DNA of 64,000 nucleotides from contig JAFGOY010000031.1 in NCBI GenBank assembly GCA_016926255.1, positions 1-64,000 on the forward strand, read 5' to 3'. Positions 43,037 through 58,885 of the stretch are shown here, piece by piece. The position numbers were made by a program, and so were the translations under genes. The DNA is from Anaerolineae bacterium. GTDB taxonomy: Bacteria > Chloroflexota > Anaerolineae > Aggregatilineales > UBA3940. The first letter of the stretch is position 1. Each line of letters starts with the position of its first letter. The notes below the pieces were generated by a model. The model did no database searches. It was given only the letters and a program-made list of their open reading frames with translations, and had not been told where the DNA came from.

Positions 43037-43084
43037 GCCCCCTGAAAGGGGGAAGTGGCGGGCGCAGCCCGGCGAAGGGGGTGG
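43037..43084 (+). repeat. Two-hairpin intergenic element, copy 1
   Basis: CCCCCTGAAAGGGGG, linker AAG, imperfect second stem TGGCGGGC-GCA-GCCCGGCGA, then AGGGGG. Same layout as copies at 43117, 44735, 46489 and 60182. Confidence 0.65.
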
Positions 43085-43116
43085 ATCGTCACGCGCAAAT
43101 CACAGGACATTTGATC

Positions 43117-43164
43117 GCCCCCAGGGCTGGGGGAGATGTCCGACGCATGTCGGACAGAGGGGGA
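43117..43164 (+). repeat. Two-hairpin intergenic element, copy 2
   Basis: First stem CCCCCAG / CTGGGGG, linker AGA, perfect second stem TGTCCGAC-GCAT-GTCGGACA, then GAGGGGG. It ends just before the promoter of the TIR-FGE gene. Confidence 0.7.
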
Positions 43165-43240: not shown

Positions 43241-44548
43241 ATGACCGAGCTATTTGTCAGCTACTGCCGTGATGACGCCGCCGTGATGGAACCCATCGTC
43301 GAGAATCTACGCCAGCTTGGTTTCGATCTGTGGGTCGACATCGAGGTACTGGAACCGGGTACCCCTGATTGGGTGCGCGCGGTCGATGAGGCGCTCAGAC
43401 GCGCCGACGGCGTGCTGGCCTTTTTAAGCCCCGCTGCCAAAGAGTCAGAGTGGTGCCACATCGAGACGCTGCGGGCAAAGATGTATAAGAAGCCCATCTA
43501 TCCGATCCTGATCTTCGGCGAGTCTGAAACCGCCGTTCCCCTCCACCTGACCGGTGCGCAGTTTGCCGATATGCGTGGCCGAGCTAGCCGTCAGCAGAAT
43601 TTCAAGAAGCTGGTCAAGAAACTGGCCCGCGATTTCGATTATCCGCTGCCGGAGTTTGACCTGAAGCCCGGCCAGAGCGGTAGTGTGCCAGTGGTGAATA
43701 TCATCCACGTCAGCGGGCATGTTGAAGGGAATGTCTATGCTCTGAACGTTGGCGGCGATGTGACCGGCGAAGTCAATATCGCGGGTGGCGATATTGTCCA
43801 ACAGACACAGGCATCGCCTCCATCATCTGTAGATACACCGAAGCCAATCGACATCCTCGATATCCTTCCCCCACCCTTTGAATGGTGCGAGATACCGGCG
43901 GGGCGAGTGGGAATCAAGGGCCAATCATTCGACGTGCAGCCCTTCCGCATGGCGAAATATCCGATCACTTACGAGCAGTTCTATGTCTTCATAGATAGAG
44001 TAGATGGTTTCTACAACGATCATTGGTGGCAGGACTTGGAGCATCGCGAATCTCCGCCGGGTAGACAGCGCTTCACTCATGCACAGAATCTTCCACGCGA
44101 AAATGTAAGCTGGTACGACGCGGTTGCCTTCTGCCGCTGGTTGAGCAGCAAAACAGGCAGTGATATCCGCCTGCCAACCGAATGGGAATGGCAGTGGGCG
44201 GCCCAGGGGCCGGATGGCCGGGTCTATCCCTGGGGCAACGATTTTGATAAGAGCCGCTGCAATACATCCGAAAGTGGTCTGAGCAAGACGACATTGGTTG
44301 AACAATATCCGAACGGTGCATCTCCCTTTAGTGTGATGGATATGTCCGGCAATGTTTGGGAATGGTGTTTGAATGAGTACGGAACGCCGCAGAATATCAG
44401 CACGACCGGCGACGCCGGTCGTGTTTTGCGGGGCGGCTCGTTCGGCCTCGATCGAGGCGATGCGCGTGCCGCTGTTCGGTCCTGGAGCCTTCCGTACAAT
44501 CGCAGCCTCAACTTCGGTTTTCGGGTGGTGTTGCTCCCATCTTATTAA
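43241..44548 (+). CDS. TIR-FGE protein, candidate diversity-generating retroelement target
   Basis: A 435-residue two-domain protein. Residues 1-135 are a TIR domain (TELFVSYCRDDAAVMEPIVE, LWVDIEVLEPGTPDW, and SEWCHIETLRAK with Glu75 in the catalytic position of NADase TIRs). Residues about 150-185 are a glycine-rich beta segment (VSGHVEGNVYALNVGGDVTG). Residues 212-435 are a formylglycine-generating-enzyme-like (C-type lectin fold) domain with FRMAKYPITYEQFYVFIDRV, LPTEWEWQWAAQG and MDMSGNVWEWC. In the last 35 residues (VLRGGSFGLDRGDARAAVRS through NFGFRVV) the positions that are usually Asn hold varied residues, mostly with C or T as third codon base. This is the pattern made by adenine mutagenesis of AAC codons. 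The start was set at 43241 where the TIR begins. No reverse transcriptase is in the window. Confidence 0.85.
   Translation: MTELFVSYCRDDAAVMEPIVENLRQLGFDLWVDIEVLEPGTPDWVRAVDEALRRADGVLAFLSPAAKESEWCHIETLRAKMYKKPIYPILIFGESETAVPLHLTGAQFADMRGRASRQQNFKKLVKKLARDFDYPLPEFDLKPGQSGSVPVVNIIHVSGHVEGNVYALNVGGDVTGEVNIAGGDIVQQTQASPPSSVDTPKPIDILDILPPPFEWCEIPAGRVGIKGQSFDVQPFRMAKYPITYEQFYVFIDRVDGFYNDHWWQDLEHRESPPGRQRFTHAQNLPRENVSWYDAVAFCRWLSSKTGSDIRLPTEWEWQWAAQGPDGRVYPWGNDFDKSRCNTSESGLSKTTLVEQYPNGASPFSVMDMSGNVWEWCLNEYGTPQNISTTGDAGRVLRGGSFGLDRGDARAAVRSWSLPYNRSLNFGFRVVLLPSY
44423..44530 (+). other. Candidate variable region (VR) of the TIR-FGE gene
   Basis: Codons 395-430. Constant codons (CGG GGC GGC TCG; GAT GCG CGT GCC; CGG; CGC; TTC GGT TTT CGG GTG GTG) alternate with runs GGC CTC GAT, TCC TGG AGC CTT, TAC AAT, AGC CTC AAC. 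The latter fit AAC/AAT template codons changed at their first two bases. The template repeat was not found in the window. Confidence 0.5.
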
Positions 44549-44898: not shown

Positions 44899-46398
44899 GT
44901 GGCCCAGTTCGAAGGTCAACACGTATTCATCAGCTACCGGCAGATTCCACAGGATAAACGATTCGCCCAGCGGTTAGCCGAAGATTTGCGGCTGGCCGGT
45001 CACACAGTCTGGATCGACGTCGAAGGGATCGGCCTGGGCGATGCCTGGAATGTCGAAATCCAGCGGGCGCTCGACGACTGCTATGCCTACATCGTTGTCG
45101 TATCGCCAGAGTCAATGACCTCGCGCTGGGTGCGCAATGAGCTGCTGTACACGCTGAACAACCGCGTGGCACAGGTCTACCCGGTGCTGTTTCGCACCGC
45201 CAAGCTGCCGCCCGAACTGGTCGGCGTGCAGTACGTCGATTTCCGCGTCGATTATGACGCGGCGTTCAGGCAGCTTCTCACCGCGCTGCCCGATCCGATG
45301 GGCACGGCGGTGATGGAGCCGCCCCGCAAAACGGCGGCGAAGAAGCCAGTCAGGTGGATCGTCGGCGGGTTGATCGGTCTGCTGGCAGTGAGCCTCGCCC
45401 TGATTTTTGGCCTGCCAGCGCTGCTACCGGAGTCGACGCCCACCCCGGAGGCTGTCGCGCCGCCCCCGGCATCGGAATCACCGACCGAGGAGCCGGGCGA
45501 GACACCCGGCGCACCCCCCGACACCGAAGTCCCGACCGAGGAAACGGGCCCGCCATCTGGCGCGACACCCGCCGAGAATCCCCTGTCCGAGCTTGAGGGC
45601 AGGATCGTCTATGCCTGCTTCATCAACGGCTACGATCAAATCTGCATGATGAACCCCGACGGCTCGAACCAGCAGCAGCTTACCGACATGGCCTCGACGA
45701 GCTGGTATCCGTCGCTGGGGCCGGACGGCGAGACGATTGTCTTTTCATCGAACCGGACGGGCATCTTCGAAATCTGGTCGATGAACACTCAGGGCACCAA
45801 CCTGCGCCGGCTCACACAGAACCTTGGAACCAACTACTCCCCGTCGATCTCCCCCGATGGCGAGCAGATCATCTTCACCTCGACCGGGCCGGAGAACAGC
45901 CATCAGAATGTATGGATAATGGACATCGACGGCGGGAACAAGGAGCAGATCATCTTTTGCGAGGACTGCGACTCGCTCGACCCGGAGTGGTCGCCCGATG
46001 GCAGCATGATTTCGTTCTCGTCCAGCATGGGCGGATCGTTCCAGCTTTACGTCGCCAACGCTGACGGCACCGACCCCCACCGGCTGACCGCGATCAACGC
46101 AATGGGTGGTCGCAACGACTGGTCGCCCGACGGCACGCAGATCACTTTTTACGCCGGGGTGTCGGGATCGAAGCAGATATACGTCATCAATACCGATGGT
46201 ACCAACCTGCGCCAGCTCACGACCAAATGGGATAACAAGGCAGCGTCGTTCTCCGAGGACGGCGAATGGCTGGTCTACGCCAGCCGCCCCGACACCGAAT
46301 CGGACAACGCCCTGTGGATGATGCATCCCGACGGCACCGATCAGCAGCAGGTGACTTTCAACGATCACCCCGACTGGCAGCCGCGCTGGGGGCCGTAG
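44899..46398 (+). CDS. TIR-TM-TolB/PD40 beta-propeller receptor-like protein
   Basis: A 499-residue single-pass membrane protein. Residues 1-140 are a TIR domain (HVFISYRQIPQDKRFAQRLA, VWIDVEGIGLGDAWNVEIQR, SRWVRNELLYTL with Glu81 in the catalytic position). Residues about 152-175 are the membrane helix, followed by a Pro/Glu/Thr-rich linker to about 230. The rest is a TolB/PD40-type beta-propeller with repeated blades such as SLGPDGETIVFSSNRTG and WSPDGSMISFSSS. The topology puts TIR inside and propeller outside. The propeller is a close paralogue of that on the kinase encoded next (46568-48643); both end WQPRWGP. GTG start with GGAGGAG upstream. NAD+ cleavage or scaffold signalling by the TIR is inferred. 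Confidence 0.85.
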   Translation: MAQFEGQHVFISYRQIPQDKRFAQRLAEDLRLAGHTVWIDVEGIGLGDAWNVEIQRALDDCYAYIVVVSPESMTSRWVRNELLYTLNNRVAQVYPVLFRTAKLPPELVGVQYVDFRVDYDAAFRQLLTALPDPMGTAVMEPPRKTAAKKPVRWIVGGLIGLLAVSLALIFGLPALLPESTPTPEAVAPPPASESPTEEPGETPGAPPDTEVPTEETGPPSGATPAENPLSELEGRIVYACFINGYDQICMMNPDGSNQQQLTDMASTSWYPSLGPDGETIVFSSNRTGIFEIWSMNTQGTNLRRLTQNLGTNYSPSISPDGEQIIFTSTGPENSHQNVWIMDIDGGNKEQIIFCEDCDSLDPEWSPDGSMISFSSSMGGSFQLYVANADGTDPHRLTAINAMGGRNDWSPDGTQITFYAGVSGSKQIYVINTDGTNLRQLTTKWDNKAASFSEDGEWLVYASRPDTESDNALWMMHPDGTDQQQVTFNDHPDWQPRWGP

Positions 46399-46567: not shown

Positions 46568-48643
46568 ATGTCGGTAGTGGGACAGGTCATCGGGCAGTAT
46601 CACATCGTGGAGCGGATCGGGCGCGGCGGCATGGCGAACGTCTACCGCGCCGAGCAGGAGTCGATGGGGCGCGACGTGGCGATCAAGCTGCTCCCCGCTC
46701 ATATGATGCAGGATCACACTTTTCTGGAGCGCTTCGTGCGCGAGGTGAAGGTGATCGCCCAACTGGAGCACCCATCGATTCTGCCGGTCTACGATTACGG
46801 CCAGTGGAACGGCCAGCCCTTCATCGTGATGCGCTACGTCACCGGCGGCACGCTCGCCGACCGCATCCGCGAGAATCCCAACGGCATGCCCCTCGACGAA
46901 ATCTCGCGGATTCTCAACCGCATCGCCGACGCGCTCGACTTCGCCCACCGGGAGGGGATCATCCACCGTGATATCAAACCCTCGAACATTCTGCTCGACA
47001 AAGATGGCAATCCCTACCTCGCCGATTTCGGCGTGGCGCGCGTCAGCGAGCCGACCCTCCAACTGACCGGCAGCGGCATCGTCGGGACACCGGGCTACAT
47101 CGCCCCGGAGATGAGTCAGCCGGGTGGCCTGACCCCGCTCGTCGACATCTACGCGCTGGGGATCACCCTTTACCAGATGCTCACCGGCCAGCTTCCCTAT
47201 ACCGGCGAGACGCCCGTCTCGGTGCTGATGGCCCATGTCCACAAGCCGATCCCCGATGTGCGTGCCTATCGCCCCGATCTGCCCGTCGGTGCGCAGCAGG
47301 TGATCGACGGGGCGCTGGCGAAGCACCCCTCCCACCGCTACCAGACCGCCGCCGACCTCGCGCTGGGTTACCGGGCGGTGGTGCTCGAAGAGATCGAACT
47401 GCCGGAGACGCAGGGACGGGCGGCCCCGGTCGTCCCGCCGCCGGTCGGGGCGGCGCAGGCCCCCCCACCCCAGTTCAGCCGACCACAGGCCCCGGCAGCG
47501 CCGCCCGTGCGGGAAGTCGGCGAGCCGAAAGCAAAGAAGAAGCTGAAGCTCCCCCCGACTGTGCTGCTCGTCGGCGTGCTGACCTGTATGATGGTTGCCG
47601 CACTGGGTGTGCTGATCTGGTACTCGGTGTTTTCTCCGGGCAGGCCAGAGGCGATTGTCGGGACGCCCGCCGGGCCGGTTAACACCCCAACACCAACTTT
47701 CAATGCGACGGCAGCGATGGCGACCATTCAGATCGTCGAGATGACCGCCCAGGCCGAAGCCGCGCTGCTCCCCACGCTGGCCGGGATCACCTCGCAGGAA
47801 ACTGCCGTTCCACCCACCGAAACGCCCCTGCCGGGGCCGGGCAAGATCGTCTACTCGTGCTATATCAACGGTTTCGATCAAATCTGCCTGATGGACGACG
47901 ACGGCACGAACATCCGCCAGCTAACCGATACACAGGCCACCGACTGGTATGCGTCGCTGGGGCCGGACGGCCAGACGATTGTCTTCTCGTCGAATCGCTT
48001 CGGGCAGCACGACATTTACAGTATGGACATCCGGGGCCAGAACATCCGGCGGCTGACGCAGGATTTCGGCCTCAACTACTCGCCGACCATCTCCCCGGAT
48101 GGCACGAAGATCGCCTTCGCCTCGACCGGCTCGAACAACCGGAACCAGAATATCTACGTGATGGATATCGACGGCTTCAACGTCGAGCAGTTGACCTACG
48201 AAACGGGTGAAAACCACGCCCTCGACCCGGCCTGGTCACCCGATGGGCAGTATATTTCCTTTGTCAGCAGCCGCGATGGGCCGTTTCAGTTGTACGTGAT
48301 GAATGCCAACGGAGCCAATCCGCGCATCCTGACCTGGGAAGATTCGCTCGGTGGACGCAACTCGTGGTCGCCCGATGGCCGCCAGATCGCGTTTTACGGT
48401 GGGCCTATCGGGGATCGGCAGATTTTCCTGGTCGATGTGGAGACCGGTGGGGTGCGCCAGCTCACCGACGAGTTCGACAACAAAGCGCCGTCCTTTTCGC
48501 CCGATGGCCGGTGGATCGTCTACGCAAGCCGGGCGACGGTCGACGAGGACAACCAGCTCTGGGTGATGCGCGCCGACGGCAGCGATCAGCACCCCATCAC
48601 CGACGACGACTATCCAAGCTGGCAGCCCCGCTGGGGGCCGTGA
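46568..48643 (+). CDS. Ser/Thr kinase-TM-TolB/PD40 beta-propeller receptor
   Basis: A 691-residue PknB-type receptor kinase. The kinase domain (about 10-270) has GRGGMANVY, the ATP lysine K40 in VAIK, HRDIKPSN, DFGVARV and GTPGYIAPEMS, so it should be active. A Pro/Ala-rich linker leads to the membrane helix at about 335-358 (LLVGVLTCMMVAALGVLIWY). Outside the membrane is a PD40 beta-propeller (about 425-691) with YINGFDQICLMDDDGTNIRQ, SLGPDGQTIVFSSNRFG and end WQPRWGP. This propeller aligns almost without gaps with that of the TIR protein upstream. The two proteins thus carry the same sensor on different inner domains. Ribosome site is weak. Confidence 0.9.
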   Translation: MSVVGQVIGQYHIVERIGRGGMANVYRAEQESMGRDVAIKLLPAHMMQDHTFLERFVREVKVIAQLEHPSILPVYDYGQWNGQPFIVMRYVTGGTLADRIRENPNGMPLDEISRILNRIADALDFAHREGIIHRDIKPSNILLDKDGNPYLADFGVARVSEPTLQLTGSGIVGTPGYIAPEMSQPGGLTPLVDIYALGITLYQMLTGQLPYTGETPVSVLMAHVHKPIPDVRAYRPDLPVGAQQVIDGALAKHPSHRYQTAADLALGYRAVVLEEIELPETQGRAAPVVPPPVGAAQAPPPQFSRPQAPAAPPVREVGEPKAKKKLKLPPTVLLVGVLTCMMVAALGVLIWYSVFSPGRPEAIVGTPAGPVNTPTPTFNATAAMATIQIVEMTAQAEAALLPTLAGITSQETAVPPTETPLPGPGKIVYSCYINGFDQICLMDDDGTNIRQLTDTQATDWYASLGPDGQTIVFSSNRFGQHDIYSMDIRGQNIRRLTQDFGLNYSPTISPDGTKIAFASTGSNNRNQNIYVMDIDGFNVEQLTYETGENHALDPAWSPDGQYISFVSSRDGPFQLYVMNANGANPRILTWEDSLGGRNSWSPDGRQIAFYGGPIGDRQIFLVDVETGGVRQLTDEFDNKAPSFSPDGRWIVYASRATVDEDNQLWVMRADGSDQHPITDDDYPSWQPRWGP

Positions 48644-48645
48644 TT

Positions 48646-48692
48646 CAGTCCACAGATATCTATCCGCGAATTGCGCGAATTACGCTGATTTA
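48646..48692. repeat. CACAGAT/CGCGAATT-family repeat block
   Basis: CCACAGATATCTATCCGCGA followed by ATTGCGCGAATTACGCTGATT directly after the kinase-propeller gene. Same family as 1125-1353. Confidence 0.55.
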
Positions 48693-48792
48693 TTGCTGCT
48701 AATGCCGGTCGATATGTTGAAGCTTGGAACGATTCTCACCGTTGTGCCGGGGATTCGATCACAACTCAACAGTTCAGGACCATGATCATCCC

Positions 48793-49716
48793 TCAGGGCA
48801 AAGATAAAGTTGAATGCTCACTAACTACAACCTTTTCCTTTTTGCCTTGATAAGAGTATTCTACGACAAGTTCTTTCCCAACCCCATATATGGGATCTTC
48901 CCCAAGCTCTTCATTTTCAACCAGTATCTCAAGTTTGTTGTCGACAATTCTCGAACGAAGCAACTCAGTTACGTCAATCGTCGTTCCTTCAGCGCCGTAG
49001 TACGCCGAGTAAATAATGAGTCTGACTGTATCACTTGGCATGCTTAGCTGTAGTCCTGCGGCAAATGAAGGTGTAGAGTTGTTTATGCCTATATATGAGT
49101 CGTTAATAAACTGATATACAAGAAGTGATCTATTATGCTTCGTTTTTACTTCGTAGGGTTCACTAAAAGAGCCCATATAGCGTTCACGATTATGCAGCTT
49201 CCTATAAACAATATCGCCTACAAGAATTTGACCTCCCTCAGCTAGAGACATTATTCTCTGAGCAGTATTGATACCGTCCCCTGCAATATTTGACTTTCTA
49301 TTTATATCCCTGACAAGGAGGTCATCCCCTTCATTGATTCCGATTCGGACAGTAAATTTGCGGGAAGTACCCGATTCAGCCTGATTAAGAGTATCGATTT
49401 CTCTCAGTATATTTAAAGCTAATCGTAGATGTATGTCGTACTGGGAAATAAAATTGATAAAGGCGATACACATGCCATCGCCTGATGGCAAAAACAAGAT
49501 TACTTCATCATTAGGAGTATAGCTGAGAGCGAGTTTTTCGAGAAACTTGAAAACTTTACTCAAACCTATGCCCATATAGGTATTTTTAACTGCTTCAATA
49601 ACACTCCGGTTTAATGAACGAATAATATCCGATTGAGCTTCTGCACTTCTGTCTCTTGTAAATCCGACTACATCTATATAGACGTATTTTACATTTGCGG
49701 TCTTTGTCATCTTCAA
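48793..49716 (-). CDS. Class III nucleotide cyclase-like protein with C-terminal DUF3395-like domain
   Basis: A 307-residue soluble protein. Residues 9-170 match class III nucleotidyl cyclases: metal Asp15 in YIDVVGFT and Asp80 in LPSGDGM, transition-state Asn150 and Arg154 in GDGINTAQRIM. The lysine that selects adenine in adenylate cyclases, normally two residues or so before GD, is not present (FLPSGD), so the base may not be adenine. Residues about 227-307 form a beta domain (IIYSAYYGAEGTTIDVTELL, DPIYGVGKELVVEYSY) like that at the C-terminus of DNAJC11-type proteins. The gene is AT-rich, unlike its neighbours, and is divergent from the HEPN-like gene. Role in phage-defence cyclic-nucleotide signalling is possible but unproven. 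Confidence 0.75.
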   Translation of the reverse strand: MKMTKTANVKYVYIDVVGFTRDRSAEAQSDIIRSLNRSVIEAVKNTYMGIGLSKVFKFLEKLALSYTPNDEVILFLPSGDGMCIAFINFISQYDIHLRLALNILREIDTLNQAESGTSRKFTVRIGINEGDDLLVRDINRKSNIAGDGINTAQRIMSLAEGGQILVGDIVYRKLHNRERYMGSFSEPYEVKTKHNRSLLVYQFINDSYIGINNSTPSFAAGLQLSMPSDTVRLIIYSAYYGAEGTTIDVTELLRSRIVDNKLEILVENEELGEDPIYGVGKELVVEYSYQGKKEKVVVSEHSTLSLP

Positions 49717-49887
49717 TCACCACTTTGCGCAAATTAGCTATGATTAGGCGCATCCGAGAGTATGATCAACGATTCGCTAAGTATGCGGAAACTGCTTCTG
49801 CTGTTTGCCCTCGGCGATATAAGCATACACAATTGTTCTCAGAAGCTCAAGCATATTCTTGTTTGTACCAATCATTTAAATGGGCAT

Positions 49888-50709
49888 ATGGAAATCCAAG
49901 ACGAACTAATCAAGGAAGTCTTCGCGCAATTTGGTGCGGCATACTATCACAGTGAAGTCTTACATAGAGGACTTTGTAACGTCTATGCGTTAGCAACCTT
50001 TGAAAAAGCCGAAGATATAACTCGTCCACGTATAGAGGAGAAATTCTCCCTCGCGTATTCTCTAACATTGGGACAAATTATTGAAAAAACAAAGGAGATA
50101 CTACCCGACAACTTGCAACAGCAACTCAAGGTTGCATTAGATAGTCGGAACTATCTGGCTCACCATTTTTGGTTTGAGCGTTGTCCGTCAATGTTTAGCG
50201 AACAGGGTCTGCTCAATTTACGTCAAGAATTGATTGAGTTCAGCGATTTATTTGCGGAGATAGACGAAGAAATAGCTGAGTGGCACAAAACTACACGATT
50301 GGCGTTCGGAATTACTGATGATTTGATTCAACAAGCATTTGACGAACTAATTGCAGGCGGGCCGGACGAATCTCTTATGTCTCAAAGACCATTGAAGAAG
50401 CAGGAGCGGTTAGTAACCGTCTGGAATGTTAAAGTTGGAGAAAATTCGACAACTCAGATTTTTGAAACAAAGGATGGCTGCCTCTGGCAACTCTGCGATG
50501 TTGGCCTCGGTTGGACACGTTTTAAGGCACCCATGCCAGATTGGGAAATCAACGAAAATATACAAAGGTATTTACCTGCCAACATCAATCCTCGGCCATC
50601 TATTTCTGAACCTTGGAATTACGAATTTCAGTTGGCTAAACGAGCAGTACTCTGGGTTAAACGTGGCAGGTTCGATAAAAGTTATACCATCGGAATCAAA
50701 GCATCGTAA
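49888..50709 (+). CDS. HEPN-like protein of unknown function
   Basis: A 273-residue soluble protein not assigned to a family. The N-terminal 140 residues are helical and contain SRNYLAHHFWFERCP; the Arg87-to-His92 spacing is the R-x4-H motif of HEPN ribonucleases, within an all-alpha context like HEPN toxins. The C-terminal half is beta-rich with several Trp (LWQLCDVGLGWTRFKAPMPD). The ATG at 49888 is preferred; a frame extension to 49762 has a composition unlike the rest. AT-rich like the divergent cyclase gene, so the two probably came together. Toxin or nucleotide-activated effector function is inference. Confidence 0.55.
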   Translation: MEIQDELIKEVFAQFGAAYYHSEVLHRGLCNVYALATFEKAEDITRPRIEEKFSLAYSLTLGQIIEKTKEILPDNLQQQLKVALDSRNYLAHHFWFERCPSMFSEQGLLNLRQELIEFSDLFAEIDEEIAEWHKTTRLAFGITDDLIQQAFDELIAGGPDESLMSQRPLKKQERLVTVWNVKVGENSTTQIFETKDGCLWQLCDVGLGWTRFKAPMPDWEINENIQRYLPANINPRPSISEPWNYEFQLAKRAVLWVKRGRFDKSYTIGIKAS

Positions 50710-50779
50710 AATCGTAGGTAGACTAACCCAGAAATTATGGTTGCATGGCATTTCGCTTTTATCTTATTTCCTCATCGCC

Positions 50780-50808
50780 TTGACTCCCTCCCCGCAATTT
50801 GATATAAT
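50780..50808 (+). promoter_or_regulatory. Strong promoter ahead of a non-coding repeat region
   Basis: TTGACT (50780-50785), 17 bp spacer, TATAAT (50803-50808). No coding sequence follows until the kinase at 51235, which has its own promoter-like boxes. Confidence 0.7.
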
Positions 50809-50814
50809 AGAACA

Positions 50815-51072
50815 TACGGTCTAGTACGTTAAAATAGCACCTTATCACAAAACTGCAAGCGTGGATGTTTTCGCGCTACAAAAACTCCTATCAATCAGCC
50901 CCGGCTGATTATCCGACACCCAACCCCAAAAACCACGTTACAAAACGCCAGCCTATCCCAAAATCAGAGGAAATCTGATTGACGACACCCAGCCCTAAAA
51001 ACCACGTTACAAAACCCCCGTGTCGACAAAATCTACTCAGCGACGTATGTCCCAAAATTCCTGTCACAAAAC
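50815..51072 (+). ncRNA. Possible non-coding RNA with tandem hairpin repeats
   Basis: Downstream of the promoter at 50780 lie two tandem units with a 69 bp period. Each has an AATCAG...CTGATT hairpin (50894-50911; 50962-50980) followed by a 32-base conserved block beginning GACACCC and ending CCACGTTACAAAAC (50915-50946 and 50984-51015, two differences). A degenerate third block ends at 51072. No ORF covers it. An untranslated RNA is the simplest reading; no clear terminator was found. The rest of 50710-51234 holds only a CGCGAATT repeat and a promoter. Confidence 0.4.
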
Positions 51073-51116
51073 TCAACTGATTCAAGTTTCAGCCCCCCAA
51101 TCTAAACAACAGAAAA

Positions 51117-51149
51117 AAATCAGCGAAATTCGCGTAATTCGCGGATAAA
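51117..51149. repeat. CGCGAATT-family repeat block
   Basis: AATCAGCGAAATTCGCGTAA followed by TTCGCGGATAAAA, in inverted orientation relative to the 48646 copy. Confidence 0.5.
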
Positions 51150-51153
51150 ATGC

Positions 51154-51182
51154 TTTCCATTTGCGCCCAGCCCGGCTATACT
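51154..51182 (+). promoter_or_regulatory. Kinase-cluster promoter, copy 1
   Basis: TTTCCA, 17 bp, TATACT followed by G. Same spacing and -10 as the promoters at 53354, 55042 and 57660. Confidence 0.55.
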
Positions 51183-51234
51183 GACCCCTGCATCGACCAG
51201 CATCCGCAGAACAACACTGCCAGGAGTATCAGCA

Positions 51235-53295
51235 ATGAGTGACCTGAGCGGCAAAACCATCGGTAAATTCCGGGTGATCGAGGAGATCGGGCGGGGCGGC
51301 ATGGCGAATGTCTACCGCGCGATTCAGCCCTCGATGGGGCGCGAGGTGGCGATCAAGGTGATGCCCGCCCACCTGACTCGTGATGCGACTTTCCTGGCGC
51401 GCTTCAATCGCGAGGTGCAGGTCATCTCCCAGCTTGAGCACCCCTCGATTCTCCCCGTCTACGACTTCGGCGAGGAAAACGGCCAGCCCTATATCGTGAT
51501 GCGCTACCTGACCGGCGGCAGCCTCAGCGAGCGGATCAAGAAAACACCCGAAGGTCTGCCGCTGAAAGATGTCGTCAGCATTGTCGAGCAGATGGCCTCG
51601 GCGCTCGATTTTGCCCACGAACGCGGCGTCACCCACCGCGATTTCAAGCCCAGCAACGTCCTGCTCGACGAGCGCGGCCACGCCTATTTAGCCGACTTCG
51701 GCATTGCAAAGGTCAGCGAATCGACCCTGGCGCTGACTGGCAGCGGCATCATCGGCACGCCGGGCTACATCGCCCCGGAGGTCAGCCGCGAGGGGCACAT
51801 CCCCCACCTGCTCGACGTTTATGCGCTGGGCGTTACCGTGTTCGAGATGATCACCGGGCAGACCCCCTACCAGGCCGATACCCCGATGGGCACCCTGATG
51901 GCCCACATCAGCGCCCCGATTCCCAACGTCCACGATTTTCGCTCCGGCCTGCCCGAAGCGATGAAGACAGTGATCGATACCGCGCTGGCAAAAGACCCGA
52001 CCACACGCTACCAGACGGCGGGACAGCTGGCCGCCGACCTGAAAGCGGTGGTCGAGGGACATCAGCCGGTCGGGGCCGAGGCGGTGGATCACGGCGGTTA
52101 TGCAGAAAGCATGCTGACCGAAGCGATACCGGCCAGGGATGAGTGGGGGCCTCCACGAGTGGCGGTGACCCCACCAGCAGCAGCAACACCCTATGTGCCT
52201 GCCGTCGAGCAGGCGGTGATCACCCCCGAAGCGAAGCGCCGGGCAAATCCCTGGTTGTGGGGCTGCCTAGGGTTGATCGGATTGGTCGCCGTGCTGGGCG
52301 TGATCGTCGGGGGGATACTGCTGCTGCGCGGCGCGCGCGGTGGGGGCAGACAGATATTTGGATCGGCTCCCACTCCTGTACCGACAGCGACATTGACCCC
52401 GGTTCCGACCGCCGTCCCGACCGAGCTTGACTACACCGCCGCACCGAGCTTCGGCAGCGTCGACCTTGCCAGAGATTTCCTCCCCGACCCGTTCAGTGTC
52501 GGCCTTATCTCCGGTGGGCCGGTCAATGCCGGTTATATCGACGGCTGCTCCGGGTATGCCGCCGCGCCGCCGGATTTCCGGCTCTTCTGGGGCGGTTCGG
52601 ATTACCCCCTCCACTTCTTCTTCGTCGCCGACGATCCCAACGCCGATACGACGCTGATCATCAGCGATGCAAACGGCATCTGGCACTGCAACGACGACTT
52701 CTGGGGCTACAACCCGAACATCGACCTTTACACTACCAGAGATGGCCAAATCGACATCTGGGTGGGCAGCATCTACCCCGACGACAATATCTCCGGGACG
52801 CTCTACATCACCGAGATGGAGATCGGCCCGGACGACGTAGACGGCGGCGGGGGCGGGAGCGCTGGCGGGGGATTGGATTGGGAACTGCCCGCCGCGTTTG
52901 GCGATCACACCCTGGAATCCGGCTTCGTCCCCGACCCCTACCCGGTCGATATGGTTGCCGGGGGAACGGTTGACGTTTATTCAGAACTCGGCGGTGACTG
53001 CCTGGGCTTTGTCGCCTCGGCCCCCGACGTGAACCTGTATTTCGACGGCTCCGGTTTCCTGCGTATCTATTTTATTGCCGACGATGCAATGAACGACCCG
53101 ACACTGGTGATCAACGAACCCGACGGCACCTGGGTCTGTATGGACGACGCAGTCAACTATGACTCGTGGAACCCGGTGATCGATTTCCAGCCTGCTGCCG
53201 CCGGGTGGTATGCGATCTGGGTGGGGACATACACTCAGGGTGAGACCTACGACGGGACGCTCTACATCACCGAGTTGGACGAGAATCACCCGTAG
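51235..53295 (+). CDS. Ser/Thr kinase-TM-tandem extracellular beta domains
   Basis: A 686-residue receptor kinase. The kinase domain (about 9-275) has GRGGMANVY, VAIKVMPA, HRDFKPSN (Ile of the usual motif is Phe), DFGIAKV and GTPGYIAPEVS. A linker with few features leads to the membrane helix at about 343-364 (WGCLGLIGLVAVLGVIVGGI). The outer part holds two copies of a beta domain of about 125 residues: one with PSFGSVDLARDFLPDPFSVG and IWVGSIYPDD, the other with AFGDHTLESGFVPDPYPVDM and IWVGTYTQGE. Both end GTLYITE and resemble PPC-type domains. The ligand is unknown. AGGAG precedes the ATG. Kinase part is paralogous to the other three kinases here. Confidence 0.9.
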   Translation: MSDLSGKTIGKFRVIEEIGRGGMANVYRAIQPSMGREVAIKVMPAHLTRDATFLARFNREVQVISQLEHPSILPVYDFGEENGQPYIVMRYLTGGSLSERIKKTPEGLPLKDVVSIVEQMASALDFAHERGVTHRDFKPSNVLLDERGHAYLADFGIAKVSESTLALTGSGIIGTPGYIAPEVSREGHIPHLLDVYALGVTVFEMITGQTPYQADTPMGTLMAHISAPIPNVHDFRSGLPEAMKTVIDTALAKDPTTRYQTAGQLAADLKAVVEGHQPVGAEAVDHGGYAESMLTEAIPARDEWGPPRVAVTPPAAATPYVPAVEQAVITPEAKRRANPWLWGCLGLIGLVAVLGVIVGGILLLRGARGGGRQIFGSAPTPVPTATLTPVPTAVPTELDYTAAPSFGSVDLARDFLPDPFSVGLISGGPVNAGYIDGCSGYAAAPPDFRLFWGGSDYPLHFFFVADDPNADTTLIISDANGIWHCNDDFWGYNPNIDLYTTRDGQIDIWVGSIYPDDNISGTLYITEMEIGPDDVDGGGGGSAGGGLDWELPAAFGDHTLESGFVPDPYPVDMVAGGTVDVYSELGGDCLGFVASAPDVNLYFDGSGFLRIYFIADDAMNDPTLVINEPDGTWVCMDDAVNYDSWNPVIDFQPAAAGWYAIWVGTYTQGETYDGTLYITELDENHP

Positions 53296-53326
53296 AGGCG
53301 GCGGTCAGGTTTCGACCGGTATCTGG

Positions 53327-53357
53327 CGCGGCGGAGTCGAGTCTCCGCCGCGTTTTT
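53327..53357 (+). terminator. Cluster terminator, copy 1
   Basis: 10 bp stem CGCGGCGGAG / CTCCGCCGCG with TCGAGT loop and T run; the T run overlaps the -35 box of the next promoter. Confidence 0.85.
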
Positions 53358-53382
53358 CATTCAGGGAGGGATCACATATACT
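53354..53382 (+). promoter_or_regulatory. Kinase-cluster promoter, copy 2
   Basis: TTTTCA, 17 bp, TATACT followed by GG, directly after the terminator stem. It should drive the solute-binding gene at 53425. Confidence 0.55.
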
Positions 53383-53424
53383 GGCAATCAGTAAATGGGT
53401 GACTGAGGATTCAGGAGGGATATC

Positions 53425-54987
53425 ATGACAGAGAAGAATAATCCGGTGAGCGAGAAGAGTGGGGGTAAGCAGGATAATACGCTGGCCTGGATTGTGGGGA
53501 TCGCTGGGGGTGGGCTGGGACTGGCAATCATCTGCGCGCTCTGTGTGGTCGTGGCGGCGGGGGTGATCATGATTATGCAGTACCGATCTGATTCGCAGGC
53601 TTACGAACCGCTGATGCCCAGCCCGTTCGTCATCACAACGGCGACCCCCGTTCCGCCGCTGGCAACGGCTGAACCGTCTGAGGAGCCGGTTATCGCGGAG
53701 CCAACAGTCGAAGAACCGACTCCCGTCGAATCGGTGGATGTTATCTGGGTCGTCAGAGAAATCGGTGGTGACATCACCATGCCGATGTTGCAAGAAGATG
53801 TCGTCGATGAATTCAACAACACTCATGACGATATCTTCCTGATAATGGACGTAGTGGCATACGATCTTTATCAGGATACACTCGCAGTGATGGTTGCCGC
53901 CGGGGATGCGCCGGATATCGTCGGCCCGGAGTCAATGATCAGCACCGGGCTGCCGACCGATCAGTGGTTGGATTTGTCCGGCTACATTGAAGAATCAGGG
54001 TTTGATACTTCCATCTACAATCCGGCGGTGATGGACATATACAACCTGCCCGACCAGGGACAGATCGCGCTGCCTTACTCGATTTACCCATCGGCAATGT
54101 TCTACAACGTCGATCTTTTTGATGCGGCCAACCTCTGCTATCCGCCGGAACATTTCGGCGAACCCTACTGCGACGGCGATCCCTGGGATTGGGACAAGGT
54201 GCGCGAGATCGGTATGCTGCTGACCCTCGACGCGAACGGCAACAACGCAACCAGCCAGAACTTCGACCCGGATAACATCGTGCAGTATGGCCTTACCCTC
54301 CAGTGGACCGATGCTCGCGGCGAGGCGATCTTCGTAGGCGGGAACGGTACCGTGTGGAATGGTCAGGGGGCGTTCATCCCGGATAACTGGCGAGACGCCT
54401 GGCAGTGGCATCACGATGGCATCTGGGAGGATCACTTCATCATGAGCCGGATCGCTACTGATGAATATTACAGCAATCCATTTTCAGAAGGGGTAGTAGC
54501 AATGTACCCCAGCCACAGCTGGTATTTCTGCTGCATTTTCAATGAGTTCAACTGGGACATCGGCGCGCTGCCTGTCCCCTTTGATGGAAATATCACGGCC
54601 AAGACGAATGGCAGTACCTTCTTTATCCATAAAGAGAGTGAGCACCCGGATGCCGCGTGGGAGGTGCTGTCATGGATGCTCGAAGAGAAATCTGACGTAC
54701 TGGACGAAGTTTTCAGCGCGAACCCCGCACGGATCGTCAGCGAGGAAGAATACCGGAATATACTGGAGGATATCTACTACGACGATTTCAGCAATGTCAA
54801 TGTCGGGGTTTTGATCGAAGCGCAAGACTATCCCGATATTCCAAGCAATGAAACCTACCTGCCAAACCACAGTTCGGCAGACGAAACCCTGTGGGATTTC
54901 TACACACTGTATCAGGAAATGCCGAGAGACATGGACGCCGACATCGACGCACTGGAGTCGGACCTGGAGTATGTTTTCTCGGACTGA
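53425..54987 (+). CDS. Membrane-anchored extracellular solute-binding protein (family 1), no kinase
   Basis: A 520-residue protein with an uncleaved-looking N-terminal membrane helix (about 12-45), a Thr/Pro/Glu-rich linker, and a sugar-type solute-binding domain (about 110-520): DEFNNTHDDIFLIMDVVAYD, MVAAGDAPDIVGPESM, GQIALPYSIYPSAMFYNVDL and WDWDKVREIGMLL. It is a close paralogue of the outer part of the kinase encoded next (55118-57610), sharing stretches like GEPYCDGDPW and NFDPDNIVQYGL. It lacks a kinase domain and no ABC permease genes are adjacent, so it may act as a ligand-binding co-receptor or decoy rather than in transport. GGAGGG precedes the ATG. Confidence 0.85.
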   Translation: MTEKNNPVSEKSGGKQDNTLAWIVGIAGGGLGLAIICALCVVVAAGVIMIMQYRSDSQAYEPLMPSPFVITTATPVPPLATAEPSEEPVIAEPTVEEPTPVESVDVIWVVREIGGDITMPMLQEDVVDEFNNTHDDIFLIMDVVAYDLYQDTLAVMVAAGDAPDIVGPESMISTGLPTDQWLDLSGYIEESGFDTSIYNPAVMDIYNLPDQGQIALPYSIYPSAMFYNVDLFDAANLCYPPEHFGEPYCDGDPWDWDKVREIGMLLTLDANGNNATSQNFDPDNIVQYGLTLQWTDARGEAIFVGGNGTVWNGQGAFIPDNWRDAWQWHHDGIWEDHFIMSRIATDEYYSNPFSEGVVAMYPSHSWYFCCIFNEFNWDIGALPVPFDGNITAKTNGSTFFIHKESEHPDAAWEVLSWMLEEKSDVLDEVFSANPARIVSEEEYRNILEDIYYDDFSNVNVGVLIEAQDYPDIPSNETYLPNHSSADETLWDFYTLYQEMPRDMDADIDALESDLEYVFSD

Positions 54988-55010
54988 TCTGATCCGGGTG
55001 AACTCAGAGA

Positions 55011-55045
55011 CGCGGCAGGCGAATTTTCTCCCCTGCCGCGTTTTT
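55011..55045 (+). terminator. Cluster terminator, copy 2
   Basis: Stem CGCGGCAGG / CCTGCCGCG with a 12-base loop and T run. Confidence 0.85.
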
Positions 55046-55070
55046 ATTTCAGATGTGGATCACTTATACT
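55042..55070 (+). promoter_or_regulatory. Kinase-cluster promoter, copy 3
   Basis: Weak -35 TTTTAT, 17 bp, TATACT followed by G. Position relative to the terminator is the same as in copies 2 and 4. Confidence 0.5.
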
Positions 55071-55117
55071 GACAATATCGTGTTCGTTCTACTGAGTGGA
55101 TCGCAGGAGCGGCAAAG

Positions 55118-57610
55118 ATGACCGGTTTCGAAGGCCAGATGGTCGGTGAGTACAAGATCGTCGAGATGATCGGTTCGGGTGGGATGGCGAACGTCTACCG
55201 GGCATACCAGGCCAAGATGGAGCGCGAGGTAGCGATCAAGATTCTGCCTGCCTATTTCATGCAGGATGACACCTTCATCGAGCGTTTCAACCGCGAAGCG
55301 CGGGTGATCGCCAGACTGGAACACCCCTCGATCCTGCCGGTTCACGACTTCGGGCAGTTCCAGGACCAACCCTATCTCGTGATGCGCTATGTGTCCGGTG
55401 TGTCACTCCTGGAGCGCATACAGGCCTGTCCGCAGGGTATGCCGCTGGACGAAGTGCAGAAGATCGTCGACCAGATGGCAAGCGCACTCGATTTCGCCCA
55501 CAAGCGGGGAATCATCCACCGGGACGTCAAGCCAAGCAACGTCCTGATCGACGAGGATGGAAATGCCTACCTCGCCGACTTCGGGATCGCCAAGGTCACC
55601 GGCTCGACGCTGGAACTGACCGGGTCGGGGATCGTCGGGACGCCGGGCTACATCGCTCCAGAGATGACGCGCCGGGGTGGAATGACTTCGCTGGTCGACG
55701 TGTACGCGCTGGGCGTCACGCTGTTCGAGATGCTCACCGGGCAACGCCCCTATGAGGCCGATACGCCGATGGGAACGCTGGTCGCCCATGCCACCGAGCC
55801 TATCCCCGATATCCGCGAGTTCCGGCCCGATCTCCCGGCGGGGATCGAGACGGTGATCGAGACGGTGCTGGCGAAAGAACCGGAGAAGCGCTACCCGACG
55901 GCCTGCGCCCTGGCAGAAGACCTCGGGGCGGCGCTGGCGGGCGCTTATGATTATGACGACGGTCTGACCATCGGCATGGCAAAGCCTGCTGCACCCGAAC
56001 CCGAATCTGTTCTGTCCCCGGACACACCACCCACGCTGGAGGGCGCGACGCGGCAGGCTGCCACGCCGCCCGTCGTCAAGGCGCCGGTTGTACCGGAGCC
56101 ATCCTGGGTGGCGGAGGCTAAACCCCGGCGGCGGAACCGGTCGCTGGTCTGGGTGCTGGGGATCGGCGGGACGCTGCTGGCTGCTGCGATCGTGGTCGGC
56201 GGGGTGATTCTCCTGAGATCGATCGGGGGGCAGAAAGATACAACCCCTGAGCCATCAGCCGCCGATCAGCCCGTGGCAGAACAGCCTGCGGTGGAGCAGC
56301 CGTCGGTGGATCAACCGGCAGACGAGGCGCCTGCTCCTGACGGGCCGGTCGAGATCACCTGGTTCGTGGAACTGGGGGGGCAAGTCGGGCCCAATCGGCT
56401 GGCGATGCAGGAAGCGCTGGCTGAGGCGTTCAACAGTTCCCACGACGATATCCACCTGAATATTAAGACATCAGAGGGTGAGGACGGGCCTACCATGCTC
56501 GCGACGATGATCGCGGCGGGAACACCGCCAGACATTGTCGGCCCGGTGGGATTAGGTATTATGAACCAGTTTTACGGCGAGTGGCTGGATTTGACGCCCT
56601 ATATCGAGCAATCCGGCATCGATACCTCTGCCTATAATCCGGCTTTGATGGTGCTGTACAACGTCCCCGGACAGGGACAGGTCGGGCTGCCGTATATTGT
56701 TTATCCCCCGGCCATGTTCTACAACGCCGACCTTTTCGACAGGGCCGGGTTGTGTTACCCGCCTCACCACATCGGCGAGCCTTACTGTGATGGCGACCCG
56801 TGGACCTGGGACAAGGTGCGCGAGATCGCCATGCTGATGACTTACGATGCCAATGGCAATGACGCGATGAGTCAGGATTTCGATCCGGGCAATATCGTGC
56901 AGTACGGCCTTGATTCGCACTGGAATGACGCACGCGGCGACGCGATCTACGTCGGCGGGGCAGGGACTCTGTGGGATGGAAACAGCGTGGTCATTCCGGG
57001 TAACTGGCGTGAAGCCTGGCTCTGGCAGGTTAACGGCATCTGGGTCGATCATTTTATGCCGAGCATGGGAGTCGTCGGGGAGATGGGTGGCAATCCTTTC
57101 GCAGAGGGGAAAGCGGCGATGTACCCCATCAACAGCTGGTATTTTATACTTTTAACCAATGACATCAACTGGGACATGGCGGCGCTGCCAGCCACTTTTG
57201 ACGGCAGACACACAACCAGGATGCATGCTGATACCTTCTTCATTCTCAAAGAAAGCCGGAACCCGCAGGCTGCCTGGGAAACACTTGTCTGGATGAGAAA
57301 TAACGAGCCAACTCAGTTGTTCGCGGAATACAGCGGACTGCCTGCCCGCGACATGGACCTCGACTGGACTCTGAACATGCTGTCCATGAGGTACGACCTG
57401 GATTTCAGCCGGGTGGATTTAGAAGTCCTGCTGGAAGCGCAGAACAATCCCGAGATTGCCAGCAGCGAAACCTACCTGCCAAACAACAACATGGCAAATG
57501 GATATCTCGCAGATTTTTATAACCGGTATCATGGTGAGCCGGTGGACATGGATACCGAACTTGCCAATCTCCAGCGCGACCTGGAGGAGATTTTCGCCGG
57601 GGGGCAGTAA
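55118..57610 (+). CDS. Ser/Thr kinase-TM-extracellular solute-binding-domain receptor
   Basis: An 830-residue fusion. The kinase domain (about 9-275) has GSGGMANVY, VAIKILPA, HRDVKPSN, DFGIAKV and GTPGYIAPEMT. The membrane helix is at about 343-366 (LVWVLGIGGTLLAAAIVVGG), then a Pro/Ala/Glu linker rich in AEQPAVEQPSVDQP. Residues about 410-830 are a family-1-type solute-binding domain: EAFNSSHDDIHLNIKTSEGE, MIAAGTPPDIVGPVGL, GQVGLPYIVYPPAMFYNADL and WTWDKVREIAMLM. Such domains normally feed ABC importers; here one is wired directly to a kinase, so sugar binding outside probably controls phosphorylation inside. AGGAG precedes the ATG. Confidence 0.9.
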   Translation: MTGFEGQMVGEYKIVEMIGSGGMANVYRAYQAKMEREVAIKILPAYFMQDDTFIERFNREARVIARLEHPSILPVHDFGQFQDQPYLVMRYVSGVSLLERIQACPQGMPLDEVQKIVDQMASALDFAHKRGIIHRDVKPSNVLIDEDGNAYLADFGIAKVTGSTLELTGSGIVGTPGYIAPEMTRRGGMTSLVDVYALGVTLFEMLTGQRPYEADTPMGTLVAHATEPIPDIREFRPDLPAGIETVIETVLAKEPEKRYPTACALAEDLGAALAGAYDYDDGLTIGMAKPAAPEPESVLSPDTPPTLEGATRQAATPPVVKAPVVPEPSWVAEAKPRRRNRSLVWVLGIGGTLLAAAIVVGGVILLRSIGGQKDTTPEPSAADQPVAEQPAVEQPSVDQPADEAPAPDGPVEITWFVELGGQVGPNRLAMQEALAEAFNSSHDDIHLNIKTSEGEDGPTMLATMIAAGTPPDIVGPVGLGIMNQFYGEWLDLTPYIEQSGIDTSAYNPALMVLYNVPGQGQVGLPYIVYPPAMFYNADLFDRAGLCYPPHHIGEPYCDGDPWTWDKVREIAMLMTYDANGNDAMSQDFDPGNIVQYGLDSHWNDARGDAIYVGGAGTLWDGNSVVIPGNWREAWLWQVNGIWVDHFMPSMGVVGEMGGNPFAEGKAAMYPINSWYFILLTNDINWDMAALPATFDGRHTTRMHADTFFILKESRNPQAAWETLVWMRNNEPTQLFAEYSGLPARDMDLDWTLNMLSMRYDLDFSRVDLEVLLEAQNNPEIASSETYLPNNNMANGYLADFYNRYHGEPVDMDTELANLQRDLEEIFAGGQ

Positions 57611-57633
57611 TATAAGCGGCAAATGATGAAAAC

Positions 57634-57664
57634 GCGGCAGGGCTGAGTCTCCGCCGCGTTTTTC
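57634..57664 (+). terminator. Cluster terminator, copy 3
   Basis: Stem CGCGGC / GCCGCG with partial inner pairing and a T run of five. Sequence around it closely follows the copy at 53327. Confidence 0.75.
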
Positions 57665-57688
57665 ATTCAGATGGGGATCGCGTATACT
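57660..57688 (+). promoter_or_regulatory. Kinase-cluster promoter, copy 4
   Basis: TTTTCA, 17 bp, TATACT followed by GG; matches copy 2 in both boxes. Confidence 0.55.
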
Positions 57689-57700
57689 GGCGCTGAATAT

Positions 57701-57735
57701 CCTATACGAAGTTCGCTTTGTGAACTTCGTATAGG
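57701..57735. repeat. CCTATACG palindromic repeat, copy 2
   Basis: Perfect 14 bp arms CCTATACGAAGTTC / GAACTTCGTATAGG with loop GCTTTGT, in the leader of the soluble kinase gene. Same family as 11311 and 58913. Confidence 0.75.
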
Positions 57736-57775
57736 AGCGGCAGATTCTAGTTGACCATCGAACAGAGGGGAACCG

Positions 57776-58885
57776 ATGAAAGACCTCACCGGGCAGGTGG
57801 TTGGCCAATACCAGATTGTCGAGCTGATCGGGCAGGGCGGCATGGCGAATGTCTACCGGGCAGTGCAGCCGACGATCAACCGCGATGTGGCGATCAAGGT
57901 GCTGCCTGCCCACCTGATGCAGGACGACACGTTCATCGAGCGCTTCATGCGCGAGGTGCAGGTAATCGCCAAGTTGCAGCACCCGCGCACCGTCCCCGTC
58001 TATGACTGCGGCGAATTCAACAACCAGCCCTACATCGTCATGCGCTACCTGACCGGCGGGTCGCTGGCCGAGATGATCTCCCGCTCACCGGACGGCATCG
58101 CACTCGACGTTCTCGTGCCGATTGTCAGCCAGGTGGCGGAGGCGCTCGATTTCGCCCACCGGCACAACGTGATCCACCGGGACATCAAACCGAGCAACAT
58201 TCTGCTGGACGAGGATGGCAACGCCTATCTCGCCGATTTCGGGATCGCCAAAGTCGACGAGGTCACTGCGCAGCTAACCGGCAGCGGCATCATTGGGACG
58301 CCTGCCTACCTCGCCCCGGAGATGGTCGAACAGGGGAGCACCACGCACCTGCTCGACGTTTACGCGCTGGGGGTAAGCATCTTCCAGGCGATCGCGGGCT
58401 GCCAGCCCTACAGTGCGACCACACCCGTCGGGCTGATGCTGGCCCATCTCAACGAACCGATACCTGACACGCGTGACTACCGCGCCGATGTCACTGCCGG
58501 GGTGCAGGCGGTGATCGAACGGGCAATGGCAAAAGACCCGGCGCAACGCTACCGGTCGGCGGGACAACTGGCCGCCGACTTCACACAGGCAGTAGCGGAG
58601 ACCAGCGGCGGTGACTATGCCGAAGAATACAATCACAGGATTCCCACCGCCGAACACCCGGCGGTGCCAACTGCCTCCGGGACGATACCTTACCAGCCTG
58701 ACCAGGGTGTCGATCAGCCTCCCGGCGAGGCGGAGGCGTGGCCGGTAACCCCTCTGCCCGAAATACTGGTGCTGGGTGGCGGCGGGCTGATCGAAATTGA
58801 CGATCCGCTGTCCGATCCCGACAGTGAAGTCGTGATCGACGACCCGGCGCAAAGCCTGATCATCATCGGCCTGCAGGGAATATGA
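57776..58885 (+). CDS. Soluble Ser/Thr kinase
   Basis: A 369-residue PknB-type kinase without a membrane helix. The kinase domain (about 9-275) has GQGGMANVY, VAIKVLPA, HRDIKPSN, DFGIAKV and GTPAYLAPEMV. The remaining about 95 residues are low-complexity and acidic, ending ILVLGGGGLIEIDDPLSDPD and a hydrophobic SLIIIGLQGI tail too short to be a sure membrane anchor. It is paralogous to the three receptor kinases upstream but has lost, or never had, a sensor. It could be a cytoplasmic partner or phosphorelay branch. GAGGGG precedes the ATG. Confidence 0.85.
   Translation: MKDLTGQVVGQYQIVELIGQGGMANVYRAVQPTINRDVAIKVLPAHLMQDDTFIERFMREVQVIAKLQHPRTVPVYDCGEFNNQPYIVMRYLTGGSLAEMISRSPDGIALDVLVPIVSQVAEALDFAHRHNVIHRDIKPSNILLDEDGNAYLADFGIAKVDEVTAQLTGSGIIGTPAYLAPEMVEQGSTTHLLDVYALGVSIFQAIAGCQPYSATTPVGLMLAHLNEPIPDTRDYRADVTAGVQAVIERAMAKDPAQRYRSAGQLAADFTQAVAETSGGDYAEEYNHRIPTAEHPAVPTASGTIPYQPDQGVDQPPGEAEAWPVTPLPEILVLGGGGLIEIDDPLSDPDSEVVIDDPAQSLIIIGLQGI

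Follow-up and report, generated by a model that had tools for sequence, protein, structure and literature searches.

Does the TIR-FGE protein encoded at 43241-44548 carry a binding face written by a diversity-generating retroelement (DGR), and is that face still being rewritten? The gene lies in the window, by which we mean the whole 64,000-nucleotide stretch of DNA analysed here, lying at the start of a 160-kb contig (C55) in a 4.6-Mb genome (G000; 82 contigs, 96% complete). The start of the gene was placed at 43241 for two reasons: the open reading frame start at 43136 adjoins an interspersed repeat, and MTELFVSYCRDD stands at the start of the paralogues. The features of the locus are as follows:

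43076..43138, minus strand: short interspersed repeat upstream of the gene (blastn)
43241..44548, plus strand: TIR-linker-FGE protein, 435 aa (open reading frame and Pfam; start in agreement with paralogues)
43253..43615, plus strand: TIR domain, TIR_2 (PF13676 match)
43676..43822, plus strand: beta-rich linker, VVNIIHVSGHVEGNVYALNVGGDVTGEVNIAGGDIVQQ (tblastn in the same genome)
43928..44530, plus strand: FGE-sulfatase / C-type-lectin-fold domain without paired FGE active-site cysteines (PF03781, alignment to solved FGEs, fold match)
44420..44530, plus strand: region matching DGR variable regions, RVLRGGS...GFRVV (ungapped match to relatives' verified TR/VR pairs)
44444..44512, plus strand: extent of the 14 template-Asn columns, each with an NNY codon here (codon count)

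Pfam search of the protein gave matches to TIR_2 (E 2e-20) and FGE-sulfatase (E 5e-41), and AlphaFold modelled both domains confidently (mean pLDDT 88), with residues 159-191, in the linker, at low confidence. The top fold matches of the predicted structure were ToxD, EgtB and FGE; the DGR variable protein TvpA (2y3c) was also among the matches. The TIR domain has a conserved Glu (residue 75, within SEWCHIE), which we take from family knowledge to be the catalytic residue expected of NADase TIRs, and by this residue the protein would belong with the TIR immune effectors. Alignment to solved FGEs showed that their paired active-site cysteines after RGGS (C....C) are absent from the protein, which reads FGLDRGDAR. 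It thus lacks the two cysteines that mark a catalytic FGE (sulfatase maturase), and this favours a binding role over an enzymatic one. On these family grounds we infer ligand binding, signalling through the linker and NAD+ consumption. A Pfam search with the linker (43676..43822) gave no match. By tblastn, a short beta-rich motif of the linker type (I.V.G.V.G.VNVAGGDI) was seen again on contigs C67, C34, C15, C57 and C2 and is common to TIR-FGE proteins and otherwise unrelated proteins of the genome; it bears a putative likeness to amyloid-signalling (BASS/RHIM-like) motifs.

The protein ends in RVLRGGSFGLDRGDARAAVRSWSLPYNRSLNFGFRVVLLPSY, where constant blocks (VLRGGS, DARAA, NFGFRVV) alternate with varied positions, just as the first-pass annotation described. 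That annotation took the alternation, together with the codon endings, as signs of a DGR target. Our alignment showed, however, that the blocks RVLRGGS, R.AAR, P and GFR are also present in catalytic FGEs, and because ordinary and catalytic FGEs share them, the block pattern alone is no evidence of a DGR target. The codons are more informative. Templates of relatives read roughly RVLRGGS(W/F)NNNQNNARAANRN(N/R)NNPNNRNNNxGFR and align with the protein without gaps. Twelve varied positions had been listed as nearly always Asn in templates, with codons mostly ending in C or T; the codon ending was borne out for 11 of the 12, but the F at 44441 (TTC) falls in the constant W/F column. The listed W at 44483 (TGG) stands opposite a column where real templates encode either Asn or Arg (AGG), hence not always Asn; TGG can nevertheless arise from AGG by mutation of an adenine, and the verified target L092 has this W too. 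The CGA at 44453 is explicable as a mutated CAA.

The comparison templates come from verified DGRs of the same taxonomic order. A PF00078 survey of this genome and 60 relatives found reverse transcriptases (RTs) in 24 of the 61 genomes, and 20 RT loci were scanned for near-repeats with mismatches at adenines. Seven complete DGRs were obtained (three in G009, the others in G018, G015, G040 and G033), and none in the remaining 13 loci. The mismatches between template repeat (TR) and variable region (VR) in the seven fell at template adenines in 133 of 136 cases (template-A vs. other, per DGR: 18/0, 26/1, 16/0, 21/0, 20/0, 17/1, 15/1). In six of them an FGE-type domain ends in the VR; in the other (L093, G040) the VR lies within a longer secreted-type protein. 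Three of the seven have TIR-FGE targets (L088 and L089 in G009, L092 in G015), each with a nearby TR and a typical DGR RT (GNLTSQ, YVDD). Of the seven TRs, a generic template pattern recovered six and missed that of G040, which has no AAY-AAY-AAY run; the pattern matched in 19 of 151 genomes, nearly always in sequences readable as Asn-rich FGE templates. The best 80 matches in the species-genome collection include many DGR targets with a neighbouring TR; they come from Chloroflexota and proteobacteria of the kind that Dore 2024 (PMC10907252) reported on. At L257-L335 we also observed several DGR-like FGE targets scoring 13-14 of 14 by the codon count below, with no template in the fetched stretch; L266 has three such genes. 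Orphan or trans FGE targets may be common.

For each gene we counted NNY codons at the template-Asn columns. A position-wise codon likelihood classifier had been set aside for poor separation, because many members of the unverified set are plainly real targets with a TR beyond the fetched stretch, and the NNY count alone was used. The window gene scored 14/14. Deduplicated TR-verified targets of the same length (n = 20) scored 14 in 13 cases, 13 in five and 12 in two, and the genome's remaining scored FGE genes of that length class ranged from 5 to 13 of 14. That the count can recognise true targets lacking a cassette is indicated by L035 (G032), which scored 14/14 although its own MAG has no TR, and which shows 20 A and only 4 non-A mismatches when set against a congener's TR. 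In a synonymous-only test, conditional on amino-acid boxes, all seven free third positions were pyrimidines, giving a P of about 0.005, before correction for multiple genes, whether codon usage was taken from the window or from the gene itself. A PF03781 search found about 29 FGE genes in the genome, and strict correction over ~30 genes (0.005 x 30 = 0.15) is not survived by the synonymous test. The gene has two of the features of an active DGR variable protein, a C-lectin/FGE domain with a C-terminal VR and NNY codons fitting AAY templates mutated at A.

Direct searches for the machinery gave a different outcome. The first-pass annotation had called for a genome-wide search for a retroelement RT and a template repeat matching 44423-44530 with mismatches only at template adenines. 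Blastn of the 96%-complete assembly found no template repeat, and A-tolerant IUPAC patterns over the VR (up to 3 mismatches) matched the VR itself only. The generic Asn-template pattern with two mismatches allowed gave nothing FGE-like in this genome, and the generic pattern had no match in it or in its eight family members. No TR remnant was found near C34, C7, C67 and C50 or within 20 kb after the window. No intact DGR RT was found in the 4.6-Mb assembly by PF00078 or by tblastn with a verified DGR RT. The sole RVT_1 (PF00078) match is a fragment at a contig edge (L022:1-1139; G000:C52), and the RT at C52:105-503 was rejected as a DGR RT, being a truncated AbiP2, an antiphage RT (E 1e-127). 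Neither a matching template repeat nor a DGR-type RT, the two marks of an active target, is therefore present in the assembly. The claim of a DGR target was thus partly supported, by the same-order DGRs with FGE targets, three of them TIR-FGE, and by the column-by-column template fit, but not by a TR or an intact RT.

Besides the AbiP2 fragment, the RT searches yielded one trace. Tblastn with a verified DGR RT gave a single match in the genome, a fossil reading MRTCKNLYPQITDWHNVMQAWCKTRKG and then a stop on contig C34:

L342:8280-8363 (G000:C34:14279-14362): DGR RT fossil, first 27 codons (tblastn)

Aligned over 38 columns with the beginning of the L092 RT, the fossil shows 53% identity; it sits 87 bp after a paralogous TIR-TM-FGE gene, at the position that the RT occupies in L092. 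Short interspersed repeats follow its stop, among them the family of the 43076..43138 repeat (blastn). Degenerate loci and MITE-like elements have been described for Thiohalocapsa DGR loci (Dore et al., PMC10907252). The VR of the C34 gene fits 26-codon templates at most Asn columns and has ordinary changes in the constant Pro and Arg columns; it is of a different length class from that of the window gene.

We consider it probable, with moderate confidence, that the gene carries an orphaned, frozen DGR-made binding face, as a former target whose cassette was lost in the lineage. Counted for this reading were the seven verified same-order DGRs, the 14/14 score, the P of 0.005, the L035 case, the many DGR targets among the best 80 matches and the C34 RT fossil. 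Weighing against it are the missing TR, the loss of the synonymous result under strict correction, two other genes at 13/14, the nearest paralogue (C50) at 11/14, the mixed FGE clade and the position of the RT fossil beside the C34 paralogue, with its different VR length class, and not beside the window gene. With no TR to set beside the VR, the case for a DGR origin draws on the codon statistics of a single 25-codon stretch.

Alternatively, the gene might still be diversified in trans by an intact RT and TR in the unassembled ~4%, in unbinned contigs or in other population members. The constant columns and third positions of its VR are free of erosion, Thiohalocapsa PB-PSB1 is known to have both trans activity and population variants whose cassettes are intact (PMC10907252), and in several relatives 14/14 targets lie at contig ends that lack a cassette. 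Yet three search designs recovered no TR-like sequence, 4.6 Mb held no DGR RT, the generic pattern found no TR in any of eight same-family genomes, and the sole RT trace (C34) is dead, so that we regard trans diversification as unlikely. Taken over both DGR readings, orphaned and active in trans, a DGR origin of the variable face appears likely from the sequence data, and the gene is likely to have been a DGR target. That it is an ordinary FGE-type protein and never was a target, its alternation being the normal FGE C-terminus and its NNY run chance plus codon bias, fits the blocks shared with catalytic FGEs and a genome with about 29 FGE genes, two of them at 13/14 with no known DGR link, but seems improbable against a 14/14 score with a full match to the template constants, the synonymous-only P, the many DGR targets among the closest homologues and scores of <=12 in every family examined whose VR is conserved between homologues (e.g. 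Accumulibacter; YQNIP and WFLTLHYAR groups).

Comparison with paralogues showed that the TIR and linker of the gene are 60-63% identical to those of C34 and C7, whereas its FGE domain is 34-36% identical to the same two. Its FGE domain is instead 59% identical to that of C50, the N-part of which is 27% identical. As the two halves have different nearest paralogues, the TIR-FGE family has been reshuffled between effector and sensor. In the FGE tree the gene pairs with C50 (0.99); the tree is not decisive, because this clade mixes verified targets and low scorers. The neighbours of the gene are a TIR-PD40 gene (44899-46398) and a kinase-PD40 (Ser/Thr kinase) gene (46568-48643), whose common propeller stretches have 74-91% DNA identity. 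Judged from these stretches, the pair appears to be a case of differing effectors on the same sensor, the same theme as the TIR-FGE module exchange. Four Ser/Thr-kinase-like gene copies lie inside 12 kb at 46580-58600, with 70-75% identity over 300-bp stretches.

For the orphaned, frozen face we infer the following course. A DGR would have written the ligand face of a non-catalytic FGE/C-lectin recognition domain, with template adenines randomised and the cDNA replacing the last ~100 bp of the TIR-FGE gene. The cassette would later have been lost in the lineage, and the gene would therefore carry one fixed binding specificity, as an orphan variable protein. Ligand binding at the FGE face would be passed to the linker, probably via oligomerisation, and on to the TIR domain; like other bacterial immune TIRs, this domain would respond by consuming NAD+ or producing a signal. 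Perhaps, and we suggest this tentatively, the lineage kept its repertoire of TIR-FGE receptors after the loss of the DGR, passing from hypermutated sensors to inherited ones with modules exchanged between paralogues. The TIR-FGE fusion is about the most direct coupling of a hypermutable recognition face to an effector of the cell-suicide type, and the same-order DGRs, with active, orphaned and fossil cassettes, form a natural comparison set for the loss of immune-sensor hypermutation and the fate of frozen receptors.

This kind of system is already known (Kaur 2020, PMC7159879; Dore 2024, PMC10907252); new are a TIR-FGE protein that is probably an orphaned target, in a genome that also has an RT fossil, and three intact TIR-FGE DGRs in relatives. 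The DGR-diversified conflict-system sensors of multicellular bacteria (PMC10907252; PMC7159879) combine an FGE/CLec variable domain with immune effectors including TIR, as the window protein does; usually a STAND or MoxR NTPase is part of such targets or lies next to them, whereas in the window protein TIR is joined to FGE and no NTPase domain was found. The same-order TIR-FGE targets (L088, L089, L092) are alike in the N-terminal TIR, the C-terminal FGE/CLec domain and a VR at the extreme C-terminus with Asn codons mutated at adenines. They differ in linker and FGE subtype and have a nearby TR and intact RT, both of which the window gene lacks. Formylglycine-generating enzyme, EgtB and ToxD have the same fold and conserved blocks; the window protein differs in having no paired active-site cysteines at the aligned positions and in its TIR fusion. 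TvpA of Treponema denticola is a surface lipoprotein, whereas the window protein starts directly with its TIR domain. The two match by sequence and fold, TvpA (PDB 2y3c) being a DGR variable protein with an FGE-like C-lectin fold.
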